From: Janibacter corallicola NBRC 107790
Lineage (GTDB): Bacteria > Actinomycetota > Actinomycetes > Actinomycetales > Dermatophilaceae
Assembly (NCBI RefSeq): GCF_001570965.1
Contig: NZ_BCSR01000010.1
Span: forward strand, 1 to 64,000
Length of the DNA: 64,000 bases
Reading direction: 5' to 3'
The notes beneath the pieces are model-generated. The model was not told where the DNA came from, did not search any database, and was given only the letters and a program-made list of their open reading frames with translations. Positions 22,532-37,604 of this stretch are shown here, piece by piece (within the stretch, counting starts at the first letter, position 1; each line of letters opens with the position of its first letter). A program made the translations under genes and the position numbers.

Positions 22532-23686
22532 ATGCCCCGCAGCATCTACGACCAGGACCACGAGTCCTTCCGGTCCTCCGTCCGTGAGTTCGTCGACCGG
22601 ACGCTCGTGCCCCGGGCCGAGTCGATGATCGCCGAGCACACCATCCCGCGGGAGGTCTGGCTCGAGGCGGGCAAGCAGGGCTTCTTCGGGCTGACCATCC
22701 CCGAGGAGTTCGGTGGTGCCGGGATCGATGACTACCGCTTCAACGCGATCCTGGGGGAGGAACTGGGGAAGTTCAACGCCGCCACCTCCTCCTGCTTCGG
22801 CATCCACGGGGACATCACTGCCCCCTACATCGTGGCCCTGGGGACGCAGGAGCAGAAGCAGCGCTGGCTCCCGCAGGTGGCCTCGGGAGAGAAGATCCTC
22901 TCGATCGGCATGACCGAGCCCTCCGGCGGCTCCGACCTGGCCGCGCTGAAGACCACGGCCGTCAAGGCCGACGATGGCTCCGGGGACTGGATCATCAACG
23001 GGTCCAAGACCTTCATCACCAACGGGTACCAGTGCGACCTCGCGGTGGTGGCCGTGCGCACCGACCCGACCAAGGGTGCCAAGGGGATCTCGCTCTTCGT
23101 CCTCGAGAAGGAGGACGAGGGCTTCACCAAGGGCAAACCGCTGGACAAGGTGGGCCAGCCGGAGTCCGACACCTCCGAGCTCTTCTTCGACAACGTCCGC
23201 GTCCCTGCCGACCGGCTCCTGGGGGATGAGGGGATGGGCTTCATCTCGATGATGCAGAAGCTCCCGCAGGAGCGCCTCGGCAACGCGGTCGGGAACATCG
23301 CCAATGCCCGCCAGATCCTCGAGGAGACGATCGAGTACACCAAGGAGCGCAAGGCCTTCGGCCAGCCGATCGGCTCCTTCCAGCACAACAAGTTCAAGAT
23401 CGCCGAGCTGGTCACGAAGGTCGAGGTCACCGAGGCCTACATCAACGACTGCGTCATGGCCCACACCGAGGGCGACCTCACAGCGGTGGACGCCGCCAAG
23501 GCGAAGTGGTGGGCCGGCGAGATCCAGTGCGACGTCCTCGACGAGTGCGTGCAGCTGCACGGCGGGTACGGCTTCATGAACGAGTACCGCGTCGCCCGCG
23601 CCTGGAAGGACGCCCGCGTGCACAAGATCTGGGCGGGCACCAACGAGATCATGAAGGAGCTCATCGGCCGCGATCTCGGTCTCTGA
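22532..23686 (+). CDS. Acyl-CoA dehydrogenase
   Basis: The 384-residue FAD enzyme oxidises acyl-CoA to enoyl-CoA. Family motifs are MTEPSGGSD near 127, the FAD/CoA-binding QLHGGYGF and IWAGTNEIMKELIGRDL at the C terminus. The Glu in LPQERLGNAVG is at the place used as catalytic base by long-chain and isovaleryl-type dehydrogenases, so a short straight-chain substrate is less likely. ATG 22532 follows GAGAGGTGA. It is divergent from, and probably repressed by, the TetR protein. Confidence 0.93.
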   Translation: MPRSIYDQDHESFRSSVREFVDRTLVPRAESMIAEHTIPREVWLEAGKQGFFGLTIPEEFGGAGIDDYRFNAILGEELGKFNAATSSCFGIHGDITAPYIVALGTQEQKQRWLPQVASGEKILSIGMTEPSGGSDLAALKTTAVKADDGSGDWIINGSKTFITNGYQCDLAVVAVRTDPTKGAKGISLFVLEKEDEGFTKGKPLDKVGQPESDTSELFFDNVRVPADRLLGDEGMGFISMMQKLPQERLGNAVGNIANARQILEETIEYTKERKAFGQPIGSFQHNKFKIAELVTKVEVTEAYINDCVMAHTEGDLTAVDAAKAKWWAGEIQCDVLDECVQLHGGYGFMNEYRVARAWKDARVHKIWAGTNEIMKELIGRDLGL

Positions 23687-23692
23687 GCACCC

Positions 23693-23742
23693 TGTTGGTG
23701 GGTTCCCGACGTGACCTGAGACACTGGGGGAACCCACCAACA
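23693..23742. repeat. 14-bp perfect inverted repeat between the acyl-CoA dehydrogenase gene and mogA
   Basis: TGTTGGTGGGTTCC and its exact complement are separated by 22 nt. The stem could be a terminator for the dehydrogenase gene (no T tract) or a regulatory element for mogA, whose ribosome binding site directly follows. Confidence 0.7.
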
Positions 23743-23757
23743 CGAAGGGGGCAGCCG

Positions 23758-24246
23758 ATGGTCGTCGCCCACGTCATCACCGTCTCCGACCGGGTCGCCC
23801 GCGGCGAACGGGAGGACCGCTCAGGGGAGCTCGCCCGTGACGCACTCACCGGAGCCGGTCACCAGGTCACCTCCAGCGTCGTCGAGGACGGCGTGGAGTC
23901 GGTATCCCACTCGCTGCACGCCGCGCTGACCGCCGGCGCCCGGGTGATCATCACCTCCGGCGGCACCGGGGTCCATCCGAAGGACCGCACCCCCGAGGGG
24001 ACTCGCGCGGTCATCGACCGTGAGATCCCCGGCATCGCCGAGATGCTGCGGGCGGAGGGCGCCAGGAAGACCCCGATGGCGGCGCTGAGCCGCGGCCTCG
24101 TCGGAGTCGTCGACGACTCCGCGACGTCGGAGGGGGCCGTCATCGCCAACCTCCCCGGCAGCCCGAAGGGGGTGGACGAGGGGCTCTCCGTCATCGTGCC
24201 CCTCCTGCCCCATCTCATCGACCAGCTGGACGGGGGTGACCACTGA
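23758..24246 (+). CDS. mogA: Molybdopterin adenylyltransferase (MogA/MoaB family)
   Basis: The 162-residue protein adenylylates molybdopterin before metal insertion. The MoCF-binding motif TSGGTGVHPKDRTPEG and the later NLPGSPKGVDEGL are typical. ATG 23758 is preceded by GAAGGGGG, which is both a ribosome binding site and a copy of the dispersed 9-mer. It starts the mogA-moaE-moaA operon. Confidence 0.94.
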   Translation: MVVAHVITVSDRVARGEREDRSGELARDALTGAGHQVTSSVVEDGVESVSHSLHAALTAGARVIITSGGTGVHPKDRTPEGTRAVIDREIPGIAEMLRAEGARKTPMAALSRGLVGVVDDSATSEGAVIANLPGSPKGVDEGLSVIVPLLPHLIDQLDGGDH

Positions 24247-24683
24247 TGAGCATCGTGCGAGCAGAGGTGACCGCGGAGGCGATCGACCTCACGGCGGCCC
24301 TGGCCGACGTCGACGACGCGACCCACGGCGCCGTCGCCTCGTTCGTCGGCCAGGTGCGCGACCACGACCCCGAGGTCCGCGGCCCGGTGGCCTCGTTGGA
24401 TTACTCCTGCCACCCCGACGCCCCGGCGATGATCGAGTCGATCGTCGCGGAGGCACTGGCTTCGGCGGACCCACACGGGGATGCGCGCGTCGTCGCGCTG
24501 CACCGGGTCGGTCACCTCGAGATCGGGGACCTCGCGCTGGTCGTGACGGTCGGCACCGCCCACCGCGGCCTGGCCTTCGAGGTCTGCCGCGCCGTCGTGG
24601 AGGCGGTCAAGCACGAGTTGCCGGTGTGGAAGAAGCAACACGGGGCCCACGGCGGCCACGTGTGGTCGGGGATGGCCTCATGA
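24246..24683 (+). CDS. moaE: Molybdopterin synthase large subunit
   Basis: The 145-residue MoaE pairs with MoaD to put the dithiolene sulfurs onto precursor Z. Conserved parts are SFVGQVRDHD, YSCHPDAPAM, RVGHLEIGD and the catalytic VWKKQ near the C terminus. ATG 24246 shares one base with the mogA stop; its own stop overlaps moaA. Confidence 0.95.
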   Translation: MSIVRAEVTAEAIDLTAALADVDDATHGAVASFVGQVRDHDPEVRGPVASLDYSCHPDAPAMIESIVAEALASADPHGDARVVALHRVGHLEIGDLALVVTVGTAHRGLAFEVCRAVVEAVKHELPVWKKQHGAHGGHVWSGMAS

Positions 24684-25675
24684 AGCCGCTCATGGACACG
24701 CACGGTCGGCTGCACCGCGACCTGCGCATCTCCCTCACCGACCACTGCAACCTGCGCTGCACCTACTGCATGCCCGCCGAGGGGGTCCCGTGGATCCCCA
24801 AGCAGGAGCTGCTGACCACCGAGGAGCTGCTGCGGGTCGTCGGGATCGCCGTCGACGCGGGCATCGAGGAGGTTCGGCTGACCGGGGGCGAGCCACTACT
24901 GCGCCCGGACGCGGTCGACATCGTGGCAGGAATCTCGGCGATGGAGAGCGCGGCCGGGCCCGTCGAGGTCTCGATGACCACGAACGCCCTGCGCCTGCCG
25001 AAGCTGGCCCAGCCGTTGAAGGAGGCCGGTCTCGCCCGGGTCAACATCAGCCTGGACACCTTGGACCCGGAGCGCTTCAAGGCGATGAGCCGGCGGGACC
25101 GTTTCGCCGACACCATGGCCGGCATCGACGCCGCGGACGAGGCGGGCTTCCACCCGCTGAAGGTCAACACGGTCCTGCTGCGCGGGGTCAACGACGACGA
25201 GCCGGTCCGGCTGCTGCACTGGGCGCTGGAGCGCGGCTTCGAGCTGCGCTTCATCGAGCAGATGCCCCTCGACGGCGGCCATGAGTGGAAGCGCGCGAAC
25301 ATGATCACCGGGGCGGAGATCCTGGAGAAGCTGCGCACCGAGTTCACCCTCACCGAGGTACCCGGGCGGGGCGCGGCGCCCGCCGAGCTCTTCCACGTGG
25401 ACGGCGGACCCGCGAAGGTCGGCGTCATCGCGTCCGTGACGATGCCCTTCTGCGGGGCGTGCGACCGGCTGCGGCTGACGGCGGACGGTCAGCTGCGCTC
25501 GTGCCTCTTCGCACGGGGCGAGACCGATCTGCGGGGCCCGTTGCGCGACAACGACGACCCGAACGAGATCGTCGACCTCATCCACTCCTGCCTGGCGGGC
25601 AAGAAGCCGGGCCACGGGATCAACGAGCCCGGCTTCCTGCAGCCACCGCGCCCGATGAGCGCCATCGGGGGCTGA
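24680..25675 (+). CDS. moaA: GTP 3',8-cyclase
   Basis: The 331-residue radical SAM enzyme starts molybdopterin synthesis from GTP. The N-terminal cluster ligands are C23, C27, C30 (CNLRCTYC); the C-terminal cluster ligands are C258, C261 and C275 (FCGACDRLRL, RSCLF). The GGEP motif occurs in LTGGEPLLRP, and the C terminus ends in the required GG. ATG 24680 overlaps moaE by 4 nt. It converges with moaD. Confidence 0.97.
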   Translation: MKPLMDTHGRLHRDLRISLTDHCNLRCTYCMPAEGVPWIPKQELLTTEELLRVVGIAVDAGIEEVRLTGGEPLLRPDAVDIVAGISAMESAAGPVEVSMTTNALRLPKLAQPLKEAGLARVNISLDTLDPERFKAMSRRDRFADTMAGIDAADEAGFHPLKVNTVLLRGVNDDEPVRLLHWALERGFELRFIEQMPLDGGHEWKRANMITGAEILEKLRTEFTLTEVPGRGAAPAELFHVDGGPAKVGVIASVTMPFCGACDRLRLTADGQLRSCLFARGETDLRGPLRDNDDPNEIVDLIHSCLAGKKPGHGINEPGFLQPPRPMSAIGG

Positions 25676-25682
25676 CCGGCAC

Positions 25683-25922
25683 TCACCCCCCGGCGAAGGG
25701 GGGCAGCACGTCGATCGTGTCGCCGTCCGCGACGGGCCGGTCCCGGGTGTCGACGTACCGGCCGTCGTGCAGCACCGAGCAGCGCTCGAGCACGTCGGTG
25801 AGCCGGTCCCCGTGGACGGAGCGGGCGGCATCGAGGACCGCCCCGATCGTGCTGCCCTGCAGCTCCTCCTCGTCCTTCCCGGCGGCCTCGGCCGCCGCAG
25901 CGAAGTACCTCACGTGGGCCAT
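25683..25922 (-). CDS. moaD: Molybdopterin synthase sulfur carrier (MoaD/ThiS fold)
   Basis: The 79-residue ubiquitin-like protein begins HVRYFAAAAEAAGK and ends PPFAGG, with the C-terminal Gly-Gly that is adenylylated by MoeB and then thiocarboxylated. It is last in the minus-strand Moco run and shares one base with mobA. Confidence 0.94.
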   Translation of the reverse strand: MAHVRYFAAAAEAAGKDEEELQGSTIGAVLDAARSVHGDRLTDVLERCSVLHDGRYVDTRDRPVADGDTIDVLPPFAGG

Positions 25923-26791
25923 CAGTGATCGTCCTTTCGTGGTTGGTCCCGGGCCGTGGCGGCGATCGCCTGCCGCAACGACTCCTTGTCGATCGGGCGC
26001 CCCTGCTCCTCGAGGCGCCCGACGGCGACCCCGAGGATGTAGGCGCCCACGGGTGCCATGGGGCGTTCGAAGTCGTGGGCGACCTGCCGGGCCAGGGTCT
26101 GGATGCCCGGCACGTCGACCGACTCGGGGTCGATCCCCACCGCCTCGCTGGCGTCCTCGATCCAGTCCGCCCAGCGCTCCTGCGCGAGGCGTTCACTCCA
26201 CCGGGCGTGGTCGCCCCACGTGTCGATGTCCGCGACGTCGTCGTCGCCGGCAGCCATGGTCACGAGCGTGGACTCGGCGAAGAGACTCCTCATGGAGCGG
26301 TCCCTGGGGTCCCCGAGGCGGGTCAACGCCGTGCGGAGGGAGTCGGTGCGGTGGATGCCGAAGAGCCACTGCGGGCTGCCGCCGGAGTCCTCGAGGCACC
26401 AGCCGTCGTGCTCCTCGCTCGCCACGTCCGGGGAGGACTGCGCGTGGGCCCAGGCGGCCACGAGCCGGCCGAGCGCGGGCACCGGGTCGGCCAGGTCGCA
26501 GGCGAGCAGCACCGTCCAGGGCGCGGGCCCGCCCACCCGGGCGAGCTCGTCCAGGCCCGCTGCGACTCCGGCGGCGGGTCCGCCGTACGGCGGGTCCTCG
26601 AGGGTCCGGTGCACGCCCTTCGGCACCTCGACGTCGCCGACGACGACGATCTCACGGGCGTCGGAGACCGCGACGAGCACGCCGTCGACGAGACGCCGGC
26701 CGGCCAGCTCGACGTCGGGCTTGCTGATCCCGCCGAGTCGCTGGCCAGCACCCCCGGCGAGGACCACGGCGTCGAAGTCGGGGATGCTCAC
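25922..26791 (-). CDS. mobA: MobA-type NTP transferase fused to a DUF6457 domain
   Basis: The 289-residue protein has an N-terminal molybdenum cofactor guanylyltransferase domain (about 7-195): VLAGGAGQRLGG, SKPDVELAG, DPPYGGPAAGVAAGL and LLACDLADPVP. The C-terminal about 85 residues (WADWIEDASEAVG to AATARDQP) match the actinobacterial DUF6457 domain, which is often joined to Moco proteins; its role is unknown. It overlaps moaC by 4 nt. Confidence 0.87.
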   Translation of the reverse strand: MSIPDFDAVVLAGGAGQRLGGISKPDVELAGRRLVDGVLVAVSDAREIVVVGDVEVPKGVHRTLEDPPYGGPAAGVAAGLDELARVGGPAPWTVLLACDLADPVPALGRLVAAWAHAQSSPDVASEEHDGWCLEDSGGSPQWLFGIHRTDSLRTALTRLGDPRDRSMRSLFAESTLVTMAAGDDDVADIDTWGDHARWSERLAQERWADWIEDASEAVGIDPESVDVPGIQTLARQVAHDFERPMAPVGAYILGVAVGRLEEQGRPIDKESLRQAIAATARDQPRKDDH

Positions 26792-27273
26792 GAGCCCTCC
26801 CGGCGCCAGGTGCCGCTGCGCCCACCGGTCTTCTCGAGCAGCTGCACGTCGGCGATGTGGGCCCAGCGGTCCTTCCCCTTGACCATGTCGATGACGGCCA
26901 GGGCCGCGACGGACACGCAGGTCAACGCCTCCATCTCCACCCCGGTCCGGTCGGCGGTGCGCACGGTGGCGGTGACGTCGACGCCGTCGTCGGTGATGTC
27001 CAGGTCCACGGTGGCCCCGTGCACACCGATGACGTGGGCGAGGGGCAGCAGCTCCGGGGTCTTCTTGGCGGCCTGGATGCCGGCGATGCGCGCGACGGCG
27101 AGCACGTCCCCCTTCGGCACGGCGTCGTCGCGCAGCAGCGCCACGACGTCGGGGGAGATGCGCACCCGCCCGGTGGCGGTGGCCGAGCGCACGGTCGGGA
27201 CCTTCTCCGTGACGTCCACCATCCGGGCCTCGCCCCGTGGGTCCAGGTGGGTCAGTGCATGTTCCTCGGTCAT
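26788..27273 (-). CDS. moaC: Cyclic pyranopterin monophosphate synthase
   Basis: The 161-residue enzyme completes precursor Z formation. Conserved segments are ARMVDVTEK, KGDVLAVARIAGIQAAK and the active-site region GVEMEALTCVSVAALAVIDMVKG (seen in parts, with the final Asp and Lys). It overlaps moeA and mobA by 4 nt on each side. Confidence 0.96.
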   Translation of the reverse strand: MTEEHALTHLDPRGEARMVDVTEKVPTVRSATATGRVRISPDVVALLRDDAVPKGDVLAVARIAGIQAAKKTPELLPLAHVIGVHGATVDLDITDDGVDVTATVRTADRTGVEMEALTCVSVAALAVIDMVKGKDRWAHIADVQLLEKTGGRSGTWRREGS

Positions 27274-28502
27274 CCGAGCCTCCTGATGGTCACGACGTCA
27301 CCCGGCGCGACCTCGTCGACGTCCGCGGCCACGACGGCCAGCGCGTCGGCGCCGGCGAGCGAGGTGACCATGTGCGACGCGGACCCGCGGCGGTGTGCGG
27401 GAGTGGCCACGAGCCGACCGGACTCGTCGCTGTTGAGCCGGACCGGCAGGTACTGGCGCCGCCCGGAGGGGGAGCGCCACCCGGTCGCGGCGACGGCGGC
27501 GTCCGGCCCCGGTCGGAGCTGGCGCCCGAGCAGCCGGTCCAGCACCGGACGCCCGAAGACCTCGAAGGAGATCGCGGTGCTCATCGGGTTGCCGGGAAAG
27601 GCGAGCACGGGGGTGCGGCCGCGCCAACGGCCCCACCCCTGGGGCTTTCCCGGCTGCATCCGCACGTGACGGAAGACCCCCTCGCCGGACTCCTCGAGGG
27701 CGATCCGGGAGACGTCGAAGGCACCGACGCTGACCCCGCCGGTGAGGAGGACCAGGTCGCAGTCGGCAAGCTCGTCCAGGGCGGCGCCGAAGGTCGTGAC
27801 GTCGTCCGCGACGGCCGCGACGTGGCGGGTGCTCACGCCCATGTCGATGAGGGAGGCGACGAGGTGGGTGCCGTTGGACTCGTAGATCTGGCCGCGCCGC
27901 AGCGTGCCCCCCGGGGCGACCAGCTCGTCGCCGGTCGTCACGACGGCCACGACCGGCCGGCGTCGCACGAGGACGCTCGGGGCCCCGGCGGCGGCGATCG
28001 CGCTCAGGTGACCGGGGGTCAGCGTCGTGCCGGCCGGGACCACGACGTCACCGGCGGCGAGGTCGCCCCCGGCGGCGCGCACGTGCCGGCCCGCGCCGGG
28101 CGCCTCCGTGATCGTCACGGTCTCGGCGCCGCCGTCGGTCAGCTCCACGGGCACGACCGTGTCGGCGTCGGAGGGCATGGGCGCGCCGGTCATGATCCGC
28201 ACGCAGTCACCACCGGCGAGGACGGGGTCGCGGCGTGAGCCGGCCGGCACGTCGGCGACGACGCGGAGGGTGGCGGGCAGGGTCTGCACGTCGGCCTGCC
28301 GCACGGCGTAGCCGTCCATCGCGGAGTTGTCGAAGGCCGGGACGTCCCCGCTGCTGCTCACGTCGCGGGCGAGCACCCGGCCGAGCCCGTCCACGAGCGC
28401 CACCTCCTCGGTCCCGGGGAGGGCCCCCGAGCCGGCCAGCAGGTGCTCGAGGAGCTCATCGCGGTACTCCTCCACGTCCAGCACGGTGCGCCGCGTGCTC
28501 AT
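27270..28502 (-). CDS. moeA: Molybdopterin molybdenumtransferase
   Basis: The 410-residue MoeA inserts molybdate into adenylylated molybdopterin. It has PAFDNSAMDGYAV near 55, IMTGAPMPSDADTVVP, the MoCF-binding TTGDELV and SNGTHL region, LTGGVSVGAFD, and AFPGNPMSTAISFEV. Domain order is normal. ATG 28502 overlaps moeB by 4 nt. Confidence 0.96.
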   Translation of the reverse strand: MSTRRTVLDVEEYRDELLEHLLAGSGALPGTEEVALVDGLGRVLARDVSSSGDVPAFDNSAMDGYAVRQADVQTLPATLRVVADVPAGSRRDPVLAGGDCVRIMTGAPMPSDADTVVPVELTDGGAETVTITEAPGAGRHVRAAGGDLAAGDVVVPAGTTLTPGHLSAIAAAGAPSVLVRRRPVVAVVTTGDELVAPGGTLRRGQIYESNGTHLVASLIDMGVSTRHVAAVADDVTTFGAALDELADCDLVLLTGGVSVGAFDVSRIALEESGEGVFRHVRMQPGKPQGWGRWRGRTPVLAFPGNPMSTAISFEVFGRPVLDRLLGRQLRPGPDAAVAATGWRSPSGRRQYLPVRLNSDESGRLVATPAHRRGSASHMVTSLAGADALAVVAADVDEVAPGDVVTIRRLG

Positions 28503-29686
28503 GCGCTGCTCCTTGTCATCTCTTCGGGTGTCCGCGTCGGTCCCTCCCAGGCCAGCATCCCGCCCTCGAGGACGGCCAGGCGGGTGAAGCCCCGTGCCCG
28601 CAGCGCCGTCGCGGCCAGGCGGGCGCGGGCACCGGAGCGACAGACGAGCACCACGTCGCGGTCGGTCGGCAGGTCGGCGCTCGCGGCGGTGTCCGAGGTG
28701 AGCGTCGCGACGGGGATGTGGTCGGCGCCGGGGATGACGCCCGTGGCCACCTCCGCCGCGTCCCGCACGTCGAGGACGAAGGGGGCCTGCCCGCCACCGA
28801 GGCGGCCGGCCAGGTCGGCGGCGGAGACGGTCGGCGCGGGTTCCTGCGCCTCGGCGCCGCTGGCCGCTTCGCCGGTGTCCCGGACGGCCGTGGGGACGGC
28901 CCGGGGTCGTGCGGGGTCCCGCGGCCGGACCGGGATCTCGCGCTGGGTCGTGGCGAGCACGTCGATGAAGAGCAGCCGACCGAGCAGGGGGGTGCCGGTG
29001 CCGGTGATGAGCTTGATCGCCTCGGTGGCCATCATCGCCCCCACCTGGCCGACGAGCGGCCCGATGACGCCGGCATCGCCGCACGCGGGGACCGACCCCG
29101 GTGCCGGGGGCGTCGGGAAGAGGTCGCGCAGCACGGTCGCGGGCAGCCCCTCCGGGGCGGCGGACCAGAAGAGCGTGAGGTGGGCCTCGGTGCGGTACAC
29201 CGCGGCCCACACGAGCGGGATGCCGAGCTCGGCGCAGGCATCGCCCACCGTGTAGCGGGTGTCGAAGTTGTCGCTCCCGTCGAGGACGATGTCGTGCCCG
29301 CCGAGCAGATCGCGCACGTTGCCCGGGTCGAGGTGCTCGCTGACGCCGACGACCTCGACGTCCGGGTTGAGCGCGCGCACTCGCTCCACGGCGCTGTCCA
29401 CCTTCGGGCGGCCCACGTCCTCGGTGGCGTGGATGACCTGGCGCTGCAGGTTCGTCGTGTCCACGAGGTCGTCGTCGATGACGGTGATCCGGCCGACCCC
29501 GGCGGCGGCGAGGTAGAGCAGCGAGGGTGAGCCGAGCCCGCCGGCACCCACGACGGCCACCCGCGCAGCGAGGAGGCGGCGTTGGCCCCCTTCGCCGACC
29601 GTCGGCATGAGCAGGTGCCGGGAGTACCGGCTCACCTCGTCCGCGGTCAGGGGAGGGCCGGCTGGGACCAGCGGTGGAACTGTCAT
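28499..29686 (-). CDS. moeB: MoeB/MoeZ-type adenylyltransferase with rhodanese domain
   Basis: The 395-residue protein joins a ThiF-type E1 domain (about 15-245; GAGGLGSPSLLYLAAAGVG, then DDDLVDTTNLQRQ) to a C-terminal rhodanese domain with the catalytic Cys in VCRSGARA. It adenylylates and sulfurates MoaD. The CxxC zinc pairs of many MoeB proteins are not visible; only isolated cysteines remain. ATG 29686 is chosen over GTG 29692 because TAGGTT lies 7 nt before it. Confidence 0.92.
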   Translation of the reverse strand: MTVPPLVPAGPPLTADEVSRYSRHLLMPTVGEGGQRRLLAARVAVVGAGGLGSPSLLYLAAAGVGRITVIDDDLVDTTNLQRQVIHATEDVGRPKVDSAVERVRALNPDVEVVGVSEHLDPGNVRDLLGGHDIVLDGSDNFDTRYTVGDACAELGIPLVWAAVYRTEAHLTLFWSAAPEGLPATVLRDLFPTPPAPGSVPACGDAGVIGPLVGQVGAMMATEAIKLITGTGTPLLGRLLFIDVLATTQREIPVRPRDPARPRAVPTAVRDTGEAASGAEAQEPAPTVSAADLAGRLGGGQAPFVLDVRDAAEVATGVIPGADHIPVATLTSDTAASADLPTDRDVVLVCRSGARARLAATALRARGFTRLAVLEGGMLAWEGPTRTPEEMTRSSA

Positions 29687-29693
29687 ACCCACG

Positions 29694-29699
29694 AACCTA
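29694..29699 (-). promoter_or_regulatory. Putative leaderless -10 of moeB
   Basis: TAGGTT on the minus strand ends 7 nt before ATG 29686, right after the narI stop, so the moe/moa genes may also be transcribed apart from nar. Confidence 0.45.
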
Positions 29700-29708
29700 G
29701 TCCACTCC

Positions 29709-30458
29709 TCATCGGCGCTGCTTCAGCTCCGGCTTGTCCCAACCCCGCTGCGGTCCGCTGATGCCCGCGCCGCGGCGGTGGTCGTCGCGGCTGCGGTAGA
29801 CGATGTAGGGCCGGGTCAGGTAGCCCACGGGTGCGGAGAAGACGTGCACGAGCCGGGTGAAGGGCCACATCGCGAAGAGGATCATCGCGGCGAGGGCGTG
29901 CAGCTTGAAGCCCAGCGGAGCCTCCGCCATGAGCTGCGCATCCGGCTGGAGCAGGAAGACCCCGCGCCACCAGGGTGAGACGCCCTCGCGGTAGTTGTAG
30001 TGCCCGCCGAACTCCAGCAGCGACCCGGCCACGGTGTTCCACATGCCGAAGACGATGACGGCCGCGAGGAAGACGTACATGACCTTGTCGTTGGTCGTCG
30101 TCACCGAGAAGACCGGGCCGTTGGTGCGTCGCCGGTAGATGAGGATGGCCAGCCCGACGAGGGCGGCGATGCCGGCCGGGATGCCGCCGGCGAGGGCGAT
30201 GACGTGGTACACCTCGTCGCTGATGCCGAGGAAGTCGGTCCACAGCTTCGGGATGACCAGGCCGATGACGTGCCCGATGACGACGCCGAGGATGCCGAAG
30301 TGGAAGAGCGGGCTGCCGATCCGCAGCAGCCGGCTCTCGTACAGCTGGGAGGAGCGGGTGGTCCACCCGAACTTGTCGTAGCGGTAGCGCCAGATGTGGC
30401 CGATGACGAAGGTGGCCAGGGACAGGTACGGGACGATCACCCACAGGACGGTGCTCAT
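29709..30458 (-). CDS. narI: Respiratory nitrate reductase gamma subunit
   Basis: The 249-residue membrane cytochrome b has five hydrophobic helices starting with STVLWVIVPYLSLATFVIGHIWRY-like sequence. Histidines that would bind the two hemes are visible in IGHIWRY, FHFGILGVVIGHVIG and LHALAAMILFAMWPFTRLVHVF. It passes quinol electrons to NarH. The ATG overlaps the narJ stop by 4 nt. Confidence 0.96.
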   Translation of the reverse strand: MSTVLWVIVPYLSLATFVIGHIWRYRYDKFGWTTRSSQLYESRLLRIGSPLFHFGILGVVIGHVIGLVIPKLWTDFLGISDEVYHVIALAGGIPAGIAALVGLAILIYRRRTNGPVFSVTTTNDKVMYVFLAAVIVFGMWNTVAGSLLEFGGHYNYREGVSPWWRGVFLLQPDAQLMAEAPLGFKLHALAAMILFAMWPFTRLVHVFSAPVGYLTRPYIVYRSRDDHRRGAGISGPQRGWDKPELKQRR

Positions 30459-31219
30459 CGCGGGACTCCTACGGGGATGTCGGGGCCGAGGTCGGCCCGG
30501 GTGGGCGAAGGGGAGGAGGCGCAGCCCTCACCGCTCGTGGGGGAGGACATGCGTTCGTCGAGCTCGGGGTCCACGGCGTAGGGAGAGGTGTCGATGCCGA
30601 CGTCCTCCTGTGGCGGACCCTGTGCGATGAGCGCCGCCAGCGCCTGTTCGTCGTCCCCGTCGAGAGTGGGCAGGGTCGCCCGCAGCGCCTGCACGACCGG
30701 GAGCCACGGGGAGGAGCGGGAGAGAAGCGCCGCGTGGAGCAGCTCGATGCTGACCCGGTGGTCGTTGAGCAGCTTCCAGGCGGTGGCGGGGTCGGCGCTC
30801 GCGCCGAACTCGAGGAGCACGCACAGGTGGTCGGGCAGCTCGCCGTCGGTGTCGGACAGCTCGACCCCCGCCCGGCGGTAGGCCTGCCGGAACTCGACGA
30901 GGGCGGCCCCCCGCCGTCGGGTGTCGCCGTGCAGGGCGTAGGTCAGGTGCAGTGCGCACTTGCGGGTGTAGTCGAAGGTGTCGACGTACTCGGCCCGGAG
31001 CTCCTCCGGGTCCGCAGAGATCGCGTGCTCGACGAAGGTGGTGAGGGGGCCGCCCACGTGCTCCGGCAGCCCGGCGGCGGTCTCGCCCAGCAGCGGCAGC
31101 AACGAGAGGAGCCGCTCGTCGGGGTAGTCCAGGAGGAGGGAGACGGCCTGCCACGCGTCGGCCTGGGCCCGCTCGTCGAGGGCCGGCCGCTTCCTCCGGT
31201 GCCGTCGCCACGGCATCAT
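30455..31219 (-). CDS. narJ: Nitrate reductase molybdenum cofactor assembly chaperone
   Basis: The 254-residue chaperone has the NarJ/TorD-like pattern: AVSLLLDYPDERLL near 25, then EYVDTFDYTRKCALHLTYALHGDTRRRG-type core in parts. It binds apo-NarG during cofactor insertion and is not part of the final enzyme. A C-terminal Ser/Pro-rich tail of about 40 residues is extra. It overlaps the narH stop; ATG 31216 is an equal alternative start. Confidence 0.94.
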   Translation of the reverse strand: MMPWRRHRRKRPALDERAQADAWQAVSLLLDYPDERLLSLLPLLGETAAGLPEHVGGPLTTFVEHAISADPEELRAEYVDTFDYTRKCALHLTYALHGDTRRRGAALVEFRQAYRRAGVELSDTDGELPDHLCVLLEFGASADPATAWKLLNDHRVSIELLHAALLSRSSPWLPVVQALRATLPTLDGDDEQALAALIAQGPPQEDVGIDTSPYAVDPELDERMSSPTSGEGCASSPSPTRADLGPDIPVGVPR

Positions 31220-32898
31220 CGGGAGTCCCCCGCCGTGTCCTCGGAGCGCCTCTCGGGGAAGAGCCCCTCGGGGGTTCCCTTGCCGTCCCAGTTGAGCAGG
31301 TTGACCCGACCGGCCTTGTCGCCCCCGCCGACGAGCTGGTCGGAGGTCTGGCGCTGCTGCAGCATGTGGAAGTTCTCCACGGCGACCGGCGTCATGGATG
31401 CCGTCCCGGACCCCTCGCCGAAGGGGCCGGAGGCCTCGTCGAGCTGGGTGTCGTACCCGGAGACGGCGCAGTCCGTCGCCAGCTCCTCCAGGGAGTGGGC
31501 CTGCTCGCCGTGGGCCGTGGGGATGACGTACCGCTCGTCGTACTTGGCCAGCGCGAGCAGCCGGTACATCTCGTACATCTCCTCCTCGCCCATGCCGACG
31601 GCGGCGGGGATCGACTCGTCCGGGTCGCGGCCGAGGTTGATGTCGCGCATGTAGGAGCGCATCGCTGCGAGCTTGCGCAGCACCGTGTCGACCGGCCCCA
31701 CGTCGCCGGCCGTGAAGAGGTTGGCCAGGTACTCGACGGGGATGCGGAGGGTCTCGATCGCCGCGAAGAGGTTGTCGTGGCTCTCCCCGTCGAAGCCGGT
31801 GTCCTTGATGACGTCGACCACGGGGGACAGCGGCGGGATGTACCAGACCATCGGCATGGTCCGGTACTCCGGGTGCAGCGGCAGCGCCACCTTGTAGTCC
31901 ATGATCAGCCGGCGTACCGGGGAGCGCTGGGCGGCCTCCACCCAGTCGCCGGGGATCCCGGCCCGCTCGGCCTCGCGCTGGACGTCCGGGTCGTAGGGGT
32001 CGAGGAAGACCTCGCGCTGGGACTCGTAGAGGTCGTGGTCGTCCTCGACCGAGGCGGCGTCGAGCACCTTGTCCGCGTCGTAGAGCATGATCCCGATGTA
32101 GCGCAGCCGCCCGACGCAGGTCTCGGCGCACACGGTCGGGATGCCCACCTCGATCCTCGGGTAGCAGAAGGTGCACTTCTCGGCCTTGCCCGTCTTGTGG
32201 TTGAAGTAGATCTTCTTGTACGGGCAGCCGGTGACGCACATCCGCCAGCCGCGGCACGTGTCCTGGTCGACGAGGACGATCCCGTCCTCGGAGCGCTTGT
32301 AGATCGCGCCGGAGGGGCAGGACGCCGCGCAGCTGGGGTTGAGGCAGTGCTCGCAGATGCGCGGCAGGTAGAACATGAAGGTCTGGTCGAACTCGAACTT
32401 CACCTTGTCCTCGATGCCCTTCAGCATCGGGTCCTTGGCGGCGTGCTCGCCGCTGCCGGCGAGGTCGTCGTCCCAGTTCGCCGACCAGGTGATGTTCGTC
32501 GGCTTGCCGGAGATGAGCGAGTACGGACGGCTGACCGGGAAGTACTTCTGCGTCGGCGCGTTGAGGACCGTCTCGTAGTCGTAGCTCCACGGCTCGTAGT
32601 AGTCCTGGATGCTCGGCATGAGCGGGTTGGAGAAGATGTTGAGCAGCTTCTTCAGCCGGCCGCCGGCCTTGAGCTTCAGCCGCCCGTTCGCGGTCCGGGT
32701 CCACCCGCCCTGCCACTTCTCCTGGTCCTCGTAGGAGCGCGGGTAGCCGAGCCCGGGTCGGGTCTCGACGTTGTTGAACCACACGTACTCCATGCCGGCG
32801 CGGTTGGTCCACGCCTGCTTGCAGGTCACCGAGCAGGTGTGGCACCCGATGCACTTGTCGAGGTTCATCACCATCGCCATCTGTGCCATGACGCGCAT
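31216..32898 (-). CDS. narH: Respiratory nitrate reductase beta subunit
   Basis: The 560-residue iron-sulfur protein carries four clusters. Cys groups are C16/C19/C22/C26 (CIGCHTCSVTC), CEHCLNPSCAASC, CRGWRMCVTGC (with the Trp that marks the 3Fe-4S site) and KCTFCYPR with VCAETC. It relays electrons from NarI to NarG on the cytoplasmic face. ATG 32898 overlaps the narG stop by 3-4 nt. Confidence 0.98.
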   Translation of the reverse strand: MRVMAQMAMVMNLDKCIGCHTCSVTCKQAWTNRAGMEYVWFNNVETRPGLGYPRSYEDQEKWQGGWTRTANGRLKLKAGGRLKKLLNIFSNPLMPSIQDYYEPWSYDYETVLNAPTQKYFPVSRPYSLISGKPTNITWSANWDDDLAGSGEHAAKDPMLKGIEDKVKFEFDQTFMFYLPRICEHCLNPSCAASCPSGAIYKRSEDGIVLVDQDTCRGWRMCVTGCPYKKIYFNHKTGKAEKCTFCYPRIEVGIPTVCAETCVGRLRYIGIMLYDADKVLDAASVEDDHDLYESQREVFLDPYDPDVQREAERAGIPGDWVEAAQRSPVRRLIMDYKVALPLHPEYRTMPMVWYIPPLSPVVDVIKDTGFDGESHDNLFAAIETLRIPVEYLANLFTAGDVGPVDTVLRKLAAMRSYMRDINLGRDPDESIPAAVGMGEEEMYEMYRLLALAKYDERYVIPTAHGEQAHSLEELATDCAVSGYDTQLDEASGPFGEGSGTASMTPVAVENFHMLQQRQTSDQLVGGGDKAGRVNLLNWDGKGTPEGLFPERRSEDTAGDSR

Positions 32899-35800
32899 CA
32901 GTAGGTCACCTCCTGGTTCGAGCGCTTGCGGATGGTCGTCACTTCGTCGCGGTTGTTGCCGGTCGGCCCGATGTAGTTGAAGAAGTAGGACAGCTGGGCG
33001 TACCCGCCGATGAGGTGGCTGGGCTTCATGAGGATCCGGGTGAGGCTGTTGTGGATGCCGCCCCGCGTGCCGCTCGTCTCCGTCAGTGGCACGTCGATGA
33101 GCCGGTCCTGGGCGTGGTGCATGTAGACCGTGCCCTCGGGCATGCGGTGGCTGACGATCGCGCGGCACGCGACGACGCCGTTGCGGTTGACCGCCTCGAT
33201 CCAGTCGTTGTCGCGGATGCCGGCCTTCGCGGCGTCCTTGTCGGAGAGCCAGATCGCCTGCCCGCCTCGGCTCAGGCTGAGCATGAAGAGGTTGTCCTGG
33301 TACTCGCTGTGGATGGACCACTTGTTGTGCGGCGTCAGGTAGCGCACCGCCACCGAGATCTCCTGCTGGTCCTCCCGCCGGGTGTCGCCGATCTCGCGCT
33401 CGCCGAAGAGCCGGGTCATGTTCAGCGGTGGTCGGTAGGTCGGCAGCTCCTCGCCCATCCCGAGGATCCAGTCGTGGTCGAGGTAGAACTGCTGACGCCC
33501 GGTGAGGGTGTGGAAGGGCTTGAGCCGTTCGATGTTCTGGGTGAAGGGGGCGTAGCGCCGACCGCCGGCCTCGCTGCCGGACCACTCCGGGGAGGTGATC
33601 ACGGGGGTGGGGGCCTGCTGGGTGTCGGCGAAGCTGATCTTGCGCCCCTCCTGCTCCGCGGCCATGTCGCGCATCTCCTGGCCGGTCTGGCGTTCGAGGT
33701 CCCTGAAGCCCTCCGTCGCCAGGCGACCGTTGGAGGTGCCGGAGAGACGCAGGATGGCCTCGGCGACGTGGACGTCGGTCTCGAGCCGAGGCTGGCCCTT
33801 GGCCGGGCCGCGGGTGACGGCGCCGTTGGTGCGGCGCAGCTCCTCGACCTCCCGGGTCGGGTCGTACCTGACTCCCTTCGTCACCATGCCGAGGTCCTCG
33901 AGCAGCGGCCCGACGGCGGTCATCTTCGCGTGGATCGCGGGGTAGTCCCGCTCCACGACCGCCAGGACCGGCAGGGTCTTGCCGGGCACCGGCTCGACGT
34001 CACCGTCCTTCCAGTCCAGGACCCGGCCGTGCACGCTGGCCATGGCCTCGGCGGTGTCGTGCCAGAGCGGCTTGGCGACGACGTCGGTCCGCGTGCCCAG
34101 GTGGTCCTCGGCCATCTCGGAGAAGCGTGCCGCGATGATCTTCCAGGCGTCCCAGTCGTTCTTGGACTGCCACGGCGGCGCGATCGCCGGGTTGAACGAG
34201 TTGATGTACGGGTGCATGTCCGTGGTGTTGAGGTCGTACTTCTCGTACCACGTCGCCGCCGGCAGGACGACGTCGGAGAGGATCGTCGAGCTCGTCATCC
34301 GGAAGTCGATCGTCATGAGCAGGTCGAGCTTGCCCTCGGGGGCCTCCTCGGGCCACGCGACGTCCGTCGGTCGCATGTCCTCCGGCGCCTGGCTCGCCCG
34401 CACCGCGTTGTCCGTGCCGAGCAGGTGCTTGAGGAAGTACTCGTTGCCCTTCGCCGAGGACCCGAAGAGGTTGGAGCGCCAGAGGGAGAGCACCCGGGGG
34501 AAGTTGTCCGGGTCCTCGGGGGCCTCGACCGCGAAGGTGAGGCTGCCCTCCTTGAGCGACCGGGCGACGTAGTCACCCACGGTCATCCCGGCCTCGGACG
34601 CCTCGTCGGCGACGGCCAGCGAGCTGCGGTCGAACTGCGGGTAGGACGGTGCCCAGCCCAGCCGGACGGCCTGGGCGAAGAGGTCCATGGTCGTCTTCCC
34701 GGGGAAGGCGCCCGGCGAGCCGTTGATCTCCTCGGCGGTGAAGGTGTCGTAGCGGTACTGGCTGGTGTTCACGTACCAGTAGGACGTCTGGTTCATGTGG
34801 CGTGGCGGGCGCACCCAGTCCAGGGCGAAGGCCATCTGCTGGAAGCCCATCAGCGGGCGGACCTTCTCCTGGCCGACGTAGTGGGCCCAGCCGCCGCCGT
34901 TGCGCCCCTGGCACCCGGTGATCGTCGTGAGCACCATCATCGTGCGGTATGCCTGGTCGGCGTGGAACCAGTGGTTCACGCCCGCCCCCATGATGATCAT
35001 CCCGCGACCCTCGGTGTCGATCGCGTTCTGCGCCCACTCGCGGGCGATCCGCACGATCTGCTGCGGCGGGACCCCGGCGATCTCGGCACCCCAGGCGGGG
35101 GTGGCCGGCACGCTCGGGTCGTGGTAGTCCCGCGGCCAGGTACCCGGCAGGCCCTCCCGGGCCACGCCGTAGTGCGCGAGCATCAGGTCCAGGACGGTGG
35201 TGACCAGCCGTCCGCCGACACGGCGCACCGGCACTCCGCGCCGCTCCCGGCCCAGCGCGCCCTCGACGTTGTCGAAGCGGGGGAAGGACACCTGCACCGA
35301 CTCCGTGGCCTGCGGGTCGTCGTAGAGGGTCAGGCGGGGCCGCACGTCGCCGAGGTCGAGGTTCCAGCGGCCCTCCTCGGAGCCGAAGCGGTGACCGATC
35401 GAGCCACCCGGGATGACCACCTCGCCGGTTGCCTCGTCGATGACCGCCGGCTTCCACATCGCGTGCTCGGAGCCGGACTCCGGGTGCTCCAGGTCCCCGG
35501 CGACGACGAACTTGCCGGGGCGGTGGCCCCCTTCGTCGGTCTCGTCCAGGGCGACGAGGTACGGGGCATCGGTGAACCGCTGGTTGTACTCCGTGAAGAA
35601 GTCCACCTGCCGGTCGACGAAGTACTCCTTGAGCACGACGTGCGCCATGGCCATGGCCAGCGCCCCGTCGGTGCCGGGGGCCGAGCTGACCCACTCGTCG
35701 GCGAACTTGACGTTCTCGGCGTAGTCGGGGGAGATCGCGATGACCTTCTGCCCCCGGTAGCGGGCCTCGGTCATCCAGTGCGCGTCGGGGGTCCGCGTGA

Positions 35801-36638
35801 GCGGGACGTTGGAGCCCCACATCATGAGGTACCCGGCATCCCACCAGTCACCGGACTCGGGGACGTCGGTCTGGTCGCCGAACATCTCCGGGGAGGCCGG
35901 GGGCAGGTCGGCGTACCAGTCGTAGAAGGAGAGCATCGGGGCGCCGATGAGCTCGTGGTAGCGGGCGCCGGAGGCGTAGCTGACCTGCGACATGGCGGGG
36001 ATGGGGGAGAAGCCGGCGATCCGGTCCGGGCCCCAGCGCTTGATCGTGTAGACGTGCGCGGCGGCGATCATCTCGATCGCCTCCTCCCACGAGGTCCGCA
36101 CGAGACCGCCCTTGCCGCGGGCCTGCTTGTAGCTGCGGCTGGCCTCCTCGTCCTGGACGATCGCGCCCCACGCGACGACGGGGTCCCCGTAGGTGGCCTT
36201 GGCGCGGCGGTAGAGCTCGAGCAGCTGGGTGCGCGCGTAGGGGTAGCGCACCCGGGTGGGGGAGTAGGTGTACCAGGAGAAGGCGGCGCCTCGGGGGCAC
36301 CCGCGCGGCTCGTACTCGGGGCGGTCGGCTCCGGTGCTCGGGTAGTCGGTCTGCTGCGCCTCCCAGGTGATGATCCCGTCCTTGACGTAGACCTTCCACG
36401 AGCAGGACCCGGTGCAGTTCACCCCGTGGGTGGAGCGGACCACCTTGTCGTGGCTCCACCGGTCGCGGTAGAAGACGTCTCCGGAGCGGCCCCCTTCGAG
36501 GAACATCGCCCGCTGGTCCGGGCTGACGCCGGCCTTGGTGAAGAACCGTCGGGTGCCCACCAGGGCCGAGGAGAGGGGGCCGTCCACCCCCGCGGACCGG
36601 GGCAGGCCGGAGTCCGGGCGTCCGCTCGTCGTGGTCAT
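32898..36638 (-). CDS. narG: Respiratory nitrate reductase alpha subunit
   Basis: The 1246-residue catalytic subunit reduces nitrate to nitrite with Mo-bisMGD. The N-terminal FS0 cluster ligands are H71, C75, C79 and C114 (HGVNCTGSC, PRGCPRG). The Mo/MGD region includes MMWGSNVPLTRTPDAHW, whose Asp family members use on Mo. There is no Tat signal, as expected for cytoplasm-facing NarG. ATG 36638 overlaps the regulator stop (ATGA) and follows GGAGGAAG. Length is full. Confidence 0.98.
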   Translation of the reverse strand: MTTTSGRPDSGLPRSAGVDGPLSSALVGTRRFFTKAGVSPDQRAMFLEGGRSGDVFYRDRWSHDKVVRSTHGVNCTGSCSWKVYVKDGIITWEAQQTDYPSTGADRPEYEPRGCPRGAAFSWYTYSPTRVRYPYARTQLLELYRRAKATYGDPVVAWGAIVQDEEASRSYKQARGKGGLVRTSWEEAIEMIAAAHVYTIKRWGPDRIAGFSPIPAMSQVSYASGARYHELIGAPMLSFYDWYADLPPASPEMFGDQTDVPESGDWWDAGYLMMWGSNVPLTRTPDAHWMTEARYRGQKVIAISPDYAENVKFADEWVSSAPGTDGALAMAMAHVVLKEYFVDRQVDFFTEYNQRFTDAPYLVALDETDEGGHRPGKFVVAGDLEHPESGSEHAMWKPAVIDEATGEVVIPGGSIGHRFGSEEGRWNLDLGDVRPRLTLYDDPQATESVQVSFPRFDNVEGALGRERRGVPVRRVGGRLVTTVLDLMLAHYGVAREGLPGTWPRDYHDPSVPATPAWGAEIAGVPPQQIVRIAREWAQNAIDTEGRGMIIMGAGVNHWFHADQAYRTMMVLTTITGCQGRNGGGWAHYVGQEKVRPLMGFQQMAFALDWVRPPRHMNQTSYWYVNTSQYRYDTFTAEEINGSPGAFPGKTTMDLFAQAVRLGWAPSYPQFDRSSLAVADEASEAGMTVGDYVARSLKEGSLTFAVEAPEDPDNFPRVLSLWRSNLFGSSAKGNEYFLKHLLGTDNAVRASQAPEDMRPTDVAWPEEAPEGKLDLLMTIDFRMTSSTILSDVVLPAATWYEKYDLNTTDMHPYINSFNPAIAPPWQSKNDWDAWKIIAARFSEMAEDHLGTRTDVVAKPLWHDTAEAMASVHGRVLDWKDGDVEPVPGKTLPVLAVVERDYPAIHAKMTAVGPLLEDLGMVTKGVRYDPTREVEELRRTNGAVTRGPAKGQPRLETDVHVAEAILRLSGTSNGRLATEGFRDLERQTGQEMRDMAAEQEGRKISFADTQQAPTPVITSPEWSGSEAGGRRYAPFTQNIERLKPFHTLTGRQQFYLDHDWILGMGEELPTYRPPLNMTRLFGEREIGDTRREDQQEISVAVRYLTPHNKWSIHSEYQDNLFMLSLSRGGQAIWLSDKDAAKAGIRDNDWIEAVNRNGVVACRAIVSHRMPEGTVYMHHAQDRLIDVPLTETSGTRGGIHNSLTRILMKPSHLIGGYAQLSYFFNYIGPTGNNRDEVTTIRKRSNQEVTY

Positions 36639-37396
36639 GTGCTTCCTCCTGGTGCGCTGGGATCGGCGGGCGTGGTCACGAGTGCCCGGCAGCGGTTCGG
36701 GCCGACGAAGGGCTCGAGCGTCATCCGCGCGTCCTCCTCGCCGAGCCGGTCGAGGGTGCCCCGCATGAGGCCGCGGTGGATGCCGCAGGCGACGTCCGGG
36801 TGGCTGCGGGCCAGCTCGATGAAGGGGCAGCCGACGAGGTCGATGCGCGCGGTGCGCCCGCCCTCCTCGGAGCCCACGTCCGGGTGGTAGCCCCACGCGC
36901 GCAGGACGTCGACGAGGGCCGTGACCACCGCCCACCACGGGACGGTGGTGTCGGTCGGTCCCTGCCCGGCCGCGTCGGCCGGAGCCTGCCGACGTGCCCA
37001 CCGGGCACCGGCCTCCTCGGGGCGAAGGGGGCTGCCGTCCCCGTGGCGGGCGCCGAAGGACTCGGTCAGCAGCCGCGCGAGCAGCTCGTGGGGGCGCTCC
37101 GGTGCCTCCGGGGGGAGGGACCGGTAGCGCTTCGGGGGGCGGCCGGCGCCGGGCGTGGGCACCGACTGGCTCGCGATGAGCCCGCCCTCGAGGAGGCGGG
37201 TGAGGTGGAAGCGCACCGTGGTCACGTGCAGCCCGACGTGCACGGCGAGCTCGGCGGCGCTCAGGCCGTCGGCGCGGCGCTCCGGCGGCAGGTCGGCGAG
37301 GACGTCGACGAGCTCGCGGCGCACGGCAGAGCGGAGCAGTCCCTCGGGGGTGTCACCGGCGCCGGTGCCTCCCGGCGAGCCCGCCGCTGAGACCAT
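36635..37396 (-). CDS. SufR-like winged-helix regulator (ArsR-related, COG2345 type) leading the nar operon
   Basis: The 253-residue protein has a winged helix at about 25-95 (RRELVDVLADL, LSAAELAVHVGLHVTTVRFHL, RPPKRYRSL). The C-terminal domain carries three cysteines, C190 (VGCPF), C204 (VACGIHRGL) and C236 (PNRCRAL), in the place where SufR-type regulators bind an iron-sulfur cluster. It overlaps narG by 4 nt, so a redox, Fe-S or NO-sensing control of narGHJI is inferred. GTG 37399 is an alternative start. Confidence 0.8.
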   Translation of the reverse strand: MVSAAGSPGGTGAGDTPEGLLRSAVRRELVDVLADLPPERRADGLSAAELAVHVGLHVTTVRFHLTRLLEGGLIASQSVPTPGAGRPPKRYRSLPPEAPERPHELLARLLTESFGARHGDGSPLRPEEAGARWARRQAPADAAGQGPTDTTVPWWAVVTALVDVLRAWGYHPDVGSEEGGRTARIDLVGCPFIELARSHPDVACGIHRGLMRGTLDRLGEEDARMTLEPFVGPNRCRALVTTPADPSAPGGST

Positions 37397-37399
37397 CAC

Positions 37400-37604
37400 G
37401 AGCCTGACGGTGCCAGATAAAGATGATGGTGGCGAGGGACTGCCGGGCGATCGTTACGCTCTCGATTTGGGCAACGACGAGGTGGCCGAATTCACCGGCA
37501 CGTCGGCGATCCGGCGCCTGCAGCACTCCGCCGGACGGGATCGGGTGCCGGTGCCGAGCGGCGTGCGCGCCCGATCCGGACGGGAGATTTGGAGGAACCC
37601 CCGG
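37400..37604. other. Intergenic region upstream of the nar run
   Basis: About 205 nt contain no convincing gene. The minus strand has the relatively AT-rich stretch around 37415-37428 (TTTATCT and CATCATC), a candidate -10/operator zone for the regulator-nar transcript; no clear FNR box was seen. Confidence 0.4.

Follow-up and report, generated by a model that had tools for sequence, protein, structure and literature searches.

In other bacteria, nitrate respiration is under the control of FNR, NarXL, and NsrR, which do the same physiological job as the one proposed for the regulator described below and belong to protein families other than its own. FNR and NsrR are also iron-sulfur (Fe-S) cluster proteins (PMC12343034). 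The closest described system is ArnR of Corynebacterium glutamicum, which represses narKGHJI and hmp. ArnR has conserved cysteines at positions 179, 193, and 223 and a conserved histidine, and it holds one [4Fe-4S] cluster per subunit; its sensor domain is weakly TRAPPC3-like. Each of the cysteines is required for both the cluster and DNA binding, the di-nitrosyl form loses DNA binding, and the protein as isolated carried about 0.5 Zn (all PMC12343034). Here, we analyze a stretch of 64,000 nucleotides from Janibacter corallicola NBRC 107790 (the window; positions 1 to 64000 of contig C10, in a genome of 3.1 Mb and 92 contigs), in which a regulator gene related to arnR stands directly before narG. 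We observed the anatomy of the operon, the family of the regulator, its conserved ligands, and conserved promoter elements. We estimate at roughly 57% the probability that an ArnR-type [4Fe-4S] repressor, released from DNA by nitric oxide (NO), heads and controls this nar operon.

The run extends along the minus strand from 37399 to 25683. Its ten genes lie on this one strand in the order that the original prediction had given, and Pfam and NCBIfam confirmed their families, as follows.

36635..37399, minus strand: regulator, 254 amino acids, with an N-terminal winged helix (PF12840, 5.4e-8) and a C-terminal sensor domain (C191, C205, H208, C237)
32898..36638, minus strand: narG (TIGR01580, 1592 bits, above cut-off)
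31216..32898, minus strand: narH, from ATG 32898 (TIGR01660, 749.7 bits, above cut-off; scanned from 32901)
30455..31219, minus strand: narJ (TIGR00684, 112.5 bits, above cut-off)
29709..30458, minus strand: narI (TIGR00351, 200.4 bits, above cut-off)
28499..29686, minus strand: moeB/moeZ-type gene, ThiF plus rhodanese (PF00899, PF00581)
27270..28502, minus strand: moeA (PF03453, PF00994, PF03454)
26788..27273, minus strand: moaC (TIGR00581, above cut-off)
25922..26791, minus strand: mobA plus C-terminal DUF6457 (PF12804, PF20058)
25683..25922, minus strand: moaD (PF02597; TIGR01687 above cut-off)

The predicted overlaps of 1 to 4 nt, including that between the regulator and narG, and the single 22-nt gap before moeB agree with the measured junctions: -4 at regulator/narG, narH/narJ, narJ/narI, moeB/moeA, moeA/moaC, and moaC/mobA; -1 at mobA/moaD; and +22 at narI/moeB. 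The narG/narH junction is -4 if narH starts at CTG and -1 from the ATG at 32898 in the same frame, and the shorter overlap is more likely because the longer one needs a CTG start in a frame that has an ATG. Two of the predicted gene labels stood with corrections, the moeB product being a ThiF-rhodanese fusion of the MoeZ type and the mobA product having DUF6457, a domain of unknown function, at its C terminus (PF20058, 2.6e-16). Within 25400 to 37800, neither a terminator-like site nor, ahead of the regulator, a consensus sigma-70 promoter was found; the sole promoter-like match in this interval falls inside narG. The tight junctions and the absence of a terminator-like site support, without proving, the transcription of the ten genes as one unit. 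The next gene upstream of the regulator, a tesB-type thioesterase gene on the same strand (37605-38558), is separated from it by 205 intergenic bases. The G+C content of the window is 68 to 75% in 4-kb steps.

Read from the GTG at 37399, the regulator has cysteines at positions 191, 205, and 237 and no others. The three cysteines had been predicted at 190, 204, and 236, a numbering that runs from the ATG at 37396, one codon after the GTG. Pfam recognized the winged helix only, and none of the NCBIfam models fits the protein. In a 45-row alignment composed of the window protein and 44 of the 66 sequences recovered by a named scan (22 were not aligned, including L260), C191, C205, and C237 are present in every row, and H208 shows a conservation of at least 90%. 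The first two cysteines are spaced as C-x13-C and align with those of the Corynebacterium ArnR-type proteins. An AlphaFold2 model of the regulator (mean pLDDT 83.9, pTM 0.60) has an ArsR-like winged helix-turn-helix (wHTH) in its N-terminal part, with which PDB structure matches agree. Its C-terminal domain matches Bet3/TPC6 (TRAPP) chains, the top one being 2bjn_A (Z 12.8, 134 residues aligned, 3.6 Å), a Z score that is middling by the tool's own grading and comes from a model with ArnR-type proteins in its input alignment. PDB sequence searches, including a profile search, gave no usable match to the sensor domain; the five displayed alignments and nearly all listed matches lie in the wHTH half.

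Profile-profile comparison of 24 regulators from the window's family with nine Corynebacterium ArnR-type proteins, collected from the vicinity of nar, gave a probability of 99.8 and an E value of 2.4e-28 over 224 columns, and a single pair of the two kinds shared 26% identity (E 1e-17). The window protein resembles C. glutamicum ArnR in combining a wHTH with a TRAPPC3-like sensor domain, here in a predicted model, and in having three cysteines with the C-x13-C spacing and a conserved histidine (PMC12343034). Both genes sit with nar, and Moco (molybdenum cofactor) genes adjoin nar in Corynebacterium genomes too. The window gene differs in leading the operon and overlapping narG, whereas the arnR gene comes after narI; in C. 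gallinarum (L220), the order is narG-narH-narJ-narI-regulator. The window run is also without narK, and its promoter elements are unlike those of Corynebacterium, apart from one shared palindrome. One Corynebacterium protein (L206, genome G905), encoded 0.8 kb past the narI match, has its cysteines at exactly 179, 193, and 223. We rejected the idea that it is C. glutamicum ArnR itself, as its mass is 25,292 Da (26,114 or 26,357 Da His-tagged) against a published 26,166 Da (PMC12343034); it is a relative of that protein. For hmp, PF00042 gave 0 matches in the genome, yet the C. glutamicum control equally gave 0.

We built a tree from 162 of 213 sequences (212 recovered plus that of the window). 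It omits six listed names, identical proteins, all but seven of the SufRs, most of L234-L249, and about two-thirds of L128-L146, and neither the genome's own SufR (L011) nor C. glutamicum ArnR is among its rows. The window protein was placed in nested sets of regulators encoded upstream of narG (3 rows, support 98; 10 rows, support 99), within a group of 37 (support 90). The Corynebacterium ArnR-type proteins formed another clade of 49 rows (support 100). Because of these separate clades and the weak deep forks (support 62), we file the regulator as ArnR type broadly, with a lineage of its own and without a claim of strict orthology with ArnR. Literature searches returned nothing on this regulator outside Corynebacterium, which is not proof of absence.

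Homologs are widespread in the window's family, with 100 of 149 sampled genomes having a match at E ≤ 1e-5, paralogs included. Matches are also listed for eight other genomes of the window's genus; they reach E ≤ 1e-68 in six and only the paralog level in two (G132 and G144). We fetched 39 family loci from other genomes, picked from the better hits, and in 36 of them narG is preceded, on its own strand and at no more than 0.7 kb, by a homolog. In the remaining three the homolog is divergent (L073), 3.2 kb upstream (L076), or on a stretch with no nar gene (L067). The linkage of regulator and narG exceeds chance in these best-hit loci, and all three cysteines are kept in 34 of the 36 regulators upstream of narG. 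Irregular frames, which may be real or may stem from sequencing errors, appear in two other loci: the narG match of L066 falls into four pieces, as though the frame were broken, and in L079 the regulator frame continues for 1543 amino acids toward narG.

The promoters of these regulators share sequence elements. By counting k-mers in 38 nar-linked upstream regions (7 of 44 regulators were not included in motif discovery), we found TCCTCTAAA in 19 of them against 0.15 expected, and no 9-mer rose above 5 in 20 shuffles. A 6-nt gap is preferred, being found at 14 of 39 sites with the left half within 3 mismatches, compared with 0 to 4 at six other gaps (perfect palindromes were counted on both strands). 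A scan of 42 whole genomes found the palindrome TTTAGAGGA-N6-TCCTCTAAA (TTTARAGGA-N6-TCCTYTAAA, at most 3 mismatches) 22 times, in 17 of the genomes, and its reversed control twice. All but one of the 22 copies precede such a regulator by 21 to 240 bp, the distance being taken to the matched stretch. The regulator is followed by narG in 16 of the 16 reported palindrome loci that have a regulator, and 10 of these loci have, on the opposite side, a frame similar to L283 NarK; the 21st case, G095, has no narG on the fetched stretch. The palindrome is also present in four of five genomes that were not used for its discovery (G103, G118, G120, and G139). This palindrome, the one described below, and the half-site expression were all set after looking at promoters.

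The ten promoters of the window's genus and a sister genus (the window group) have half-site-like copies, a distal one in nine and a proximal one in eight. These matches comprise 17 forward and 1 reverse, compared with a mean of 0.08 and a maximum of 1 in shuffles, for an expression that was chosen after inspection. A TATCTGGCA-type element is present in all ten, and the proximal half-site-like sequence runs into it. In the window, this element lies at -20 from the GTG at 37399, as it does in six of nine related promoters; its position relative to the assigned starts varies from -19 to -23. The whole genome has three exact copies of TCCTCYAAA, one of them here, and one of the reversed control. 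The elements of the window promoter are the following.

37588..37596, minus strand: distal half-site-like TCCTCCAAA, at -197; a forward site is similarly placed in 9 of 10 promoters of the window's and sister genus
37466..37491, minus strand: degenerate palindrome ATTCGGCCAC-CTCGTC-GTTGCCCAAA, at -92; 6 of 20 mismatches to ATTACGCAAC-N6-GTTGCGTAAT
37411..37426, minus strand: proximal TCATCTTTATCTGGCA, half-site-like and running into a probable -10 element; all 10 promoters have a TATCTGGCA-type element, and 8 of them the half-site-like part

The proximal element probably acts as a -10 element, and a half-site lying over it would suit a repressor.

The palindrome that the window group shares with Corynebacterium, ATTACGCAAC-N6-GTTGCGTAAT, lies at -91 to -95 in nine of the ten window-group promoters. 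Seven of the ten match within 6 of 20 mismatches (null, 0.3%) and nine within 7 (null, 2.6%). Of 25 Corynebacterium genomes, 14 have this palindrome ahead of narK (within 6 mismatches; null, 0.9%), and 5 of the other 28 nar-linked promoters match it. The 6-nt gap stands out for this palindrome too, and among the 9-mers of the Corynebacterium promoters, GTTGCGTAA is the most overrepresented (6 of 25; expected, 0.07). Before the pattern was set, we had inspected the promoters of L300-L302, L041, L042, L049, and the window; once these are excluded, matches within 6 mismatches remain in 11 of 22 Corynebacterium promoters and in 3 of 6 from the window group. At a limit of 4 mismatches, the family loci (530,153 bases) contain three copies, each of them at the regulator promoter, and the Corynebacterium regulator loci (680,962 bases, which mostly stop short of the narK promoter) contain none. 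A search of PMC10436651 for wording on binding sites gave no match. The shared palindrome is a candidate ArnR operator and could also belong to another factor.

We postulate that the first gene encodes an ArnR-type repressor, a winged-helix dimer in which the three cysteines, and perhaps His208, would hold a [4Fe-4S] cluster in the TRAPP/Bet3-like C-terminal domain. With its cluster intact, the repressor would bind within 37400-37604, where the half-site-like element meets the likely -10 element, and would shut its own gene and the nine genes behind it. When oxygen falls, NO from basal nitrate reductase, and perhaps from a NirK-like enzyme, would persist; the persisting NO would nitrosylate the cluster, and the repressor would release the DNA. 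The cluster, the NO response, and the repression are taken over by analogy from C. glutamicum ArnR, and we infer that the conserved elements are sites of this regulator and that one of them overlaps the -10 element. The original prediction had proposed that Fe-S or redox/NO state controls nar, and an Fe-S, NO-responsive, FNR-free regulator is indeed likely, with the presumed cluster and NO response amounting to the published ArnR mechanism (PMC12343034). The proposed control is therefore likely to be largely of a known kind, the ArnR mechanism, here in a lineage and with a gene order that are new, and not a variant of SufR.

Several observations weigh against an NO-released ArnR-type repressor acting at this operon. 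All of the support is computational. The tree does not unite the window clade with the Corynebacterium ArnR type. One Corynebacterium-type protein (L260) is missing the middle cysteine, and in two family loci (L075 and L077) the regulator next to narG is without the three cysteines; in both, a second, cysteine-bearing copy lies about 4.2 to 4.4 kb from narG, as if sensing had moved there. The palindrome TTTAGAGGA-N6-TCCTCTAAA is found in none of the ten genomes of the window's genus and the sister genus, the window's own included, and the half-sites of the window group are weaker and were defined after inspection. The other two exact TCCTCYAAA copies in the genome stand at places without an obvious link. 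In all 25 Corynebacterium narK promoters, the best match to the TCCTCTAAA palindrome has 7 or more mismatches.

An alternative hypothesis is that the palindromes belong to another factor, in which case the regulator would bind one element type or none, and nar would be under both this regulator and a second one. The presence of two unlike elements in the same promoters speaks for this, as does the recognition-helix stretch, which reads HVTTVRFHL in the window clade and HVNTARGHL in Corynebacterium, yet the ATTACGCAAC element is shared. We nevertheless regard such a division as unlikely, since both elements are palindromes with N6 spacing, the only copies of ATTACGCAAC-N6 within 4 mismatches in the family loci are the three at the regulator promoter, and 21 of the 22 copies of the first palindrome adjoin a regulator of this type. 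The sensor could also read metal or redox state instead of NO, with the three cysteines binding zinc or acting as a thiol switch. Bet3-like folds include zinc proteins, ArnR was isolated with zinc, and the sensor of DmpR binds zinc via three cysteines and a glutamate (PMC7264223). In C. glutamicum ArnR, the cluster and DNA binding depend on each of the aligned cysteines (PMC12343034), which makes a zinc or thiol sensor quite improbable. A cysteine spacing common to the regulator and the DmpR zinc site found no backing in passages of PMC7264223.

The name "SufR-like" in the original prediction would make the regulator a sensor of the cell's Fe-S status, through which nar would depend on cluster supply. 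An ArsR/MarR-like wHTH and C-terminal cysteines, the cluster site of SufR, are common to both proteins, and one Corynebacterium ArnR-type protein weakly matches the SufR model (E 0.0018). The window protein itself has no match to that model (TIGR02702) at E ≤ 0.01, and the genome owns a true SufR (L011), encoded directly before sufB and matching TIGR02702 at 3.5e-19, below the cyanobacterial cut-off. SufRs beside sufB carry a four-cysteine C-terminal pattern, against three cysteines in the window protein; the neighbors of the window regulator are nar genes, and the suf linkage belongs to L011. In the tree, from which the genome's own SufR is absent, seven Corynebacterium SufRs form their own clade (support 100). 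On the model, the cysteine pattern, the gene context, and the tree, we rejected the SufR identity, and a sensor of cluster supply appears very improbable. The original prediction had also seen no sign of FNR or NarXL control, and this held for FNR: the only strong CRP/FNR-family match in the genome (PF13545, 64.9 bits) is a protein without any cysteine, so that by its sequence it is Crp/GlxR-like and not FNR. By eye, two further PF13545 matches are GntR- and DtxR-like, and four weaker ones were not read. No CRP-type site (TGTGA-N6-TCACA) was found within 2 mismatches in the nar promoter.

If control by an NO-released ArnR-type repressor is correct, the principle of nitrate respiration switched by NO via an Fe-S repressor extends from Corynebacterium to another actinobacterial family, in which the sensor gene leads the operon. 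It would also supply concrete operator predictions and, in the paralog at the nitrite reductase described below, a possible second sensor. We tentatively propose a larger picture, which we hold to be less likely than not: a second, hitherto undescribed lineage of NO sensors of the ArnR type, spread across a large actinobacterial family, with a sensor leading the operon that makes its own signal, dedicated operators (TTTAGAGGA-N6-TCCTCTAAA in many genera and ATTACGCAAC-N6-GTTGCGTAAT in the window group) found almost nowhere else, a NirK-side paralog for the next step, and a closed, FNR-free NO circuit that would co-switch part of the Moco pathway. What is new here is the predicted operators, the family-wide linkage with narG, and the paralog beside the NirK-like gene.

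The prediction that the enzyme and its cofactor supply are controlled together is only partly right. The run holds five Moco genes; three further ones lie on the other strand and converge on it, in a set (23506-25675, plus strand) that ends 7 nt from moaD.

24659..25675, plus strand: moaA, convergent, start not fixed (PF04055, PF06463)
24246..24683, plus strand: moaE, convergent (PF02391)
23506..24246, plus strand: mog/moaB-type gene, domain at residues 90-236, true start probably later (PF00994)

The window thus divides its Moco genes between the nar run and an opposite-strand set (moaA, moaE, and mog) that is beyond the reach of this promoter. The complete moeB-moeA-moaC-mobA-moaD tail follows narI in nine of nine fetched loci from the window's genus and one sister genus (L041-L049); in the remaining fetched family loci, it is partial or not seen.

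In sister genera, a divergent narK lies next to the regulator, and in the window the tesB-type gene (37605-38558) is at that place. The best NarK score in the window's own genome is 40.4 bits, compared with 214.9 for the NarK of a relative (L283); we judged by score, as the model's cut-off of 311.7 is useless when a clear relative scores only 214.9.

A second three-cysteine ArnR-type regulator is encoded on contig C40 of the same genome (L080:8745-9410, minus strand). Divergent to it is a gene for an 891-amino-acid protein (L080:9777-12452, plus strand) with a part resembling copper nitrite reductase (TIGR02376, 2.5e-39, below cut-off). We rejected this regulator as a SufR candidate, given that it adjoins the NirK-like gene and that the true SufR is L011. 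Since the three-cysteine paralog adjoins a NirK-like gene, the genome can plausibly make NO from nitrite beside a sensor of the same type. In Corynebacterium loci (e.g., L256-L260), ArnR-type genes are often within about 4.3 kb of a match to the NirK-like protein of the window's genome, and three of these loci (L256, L258, and L259) have two copies of the regulator in tandem.

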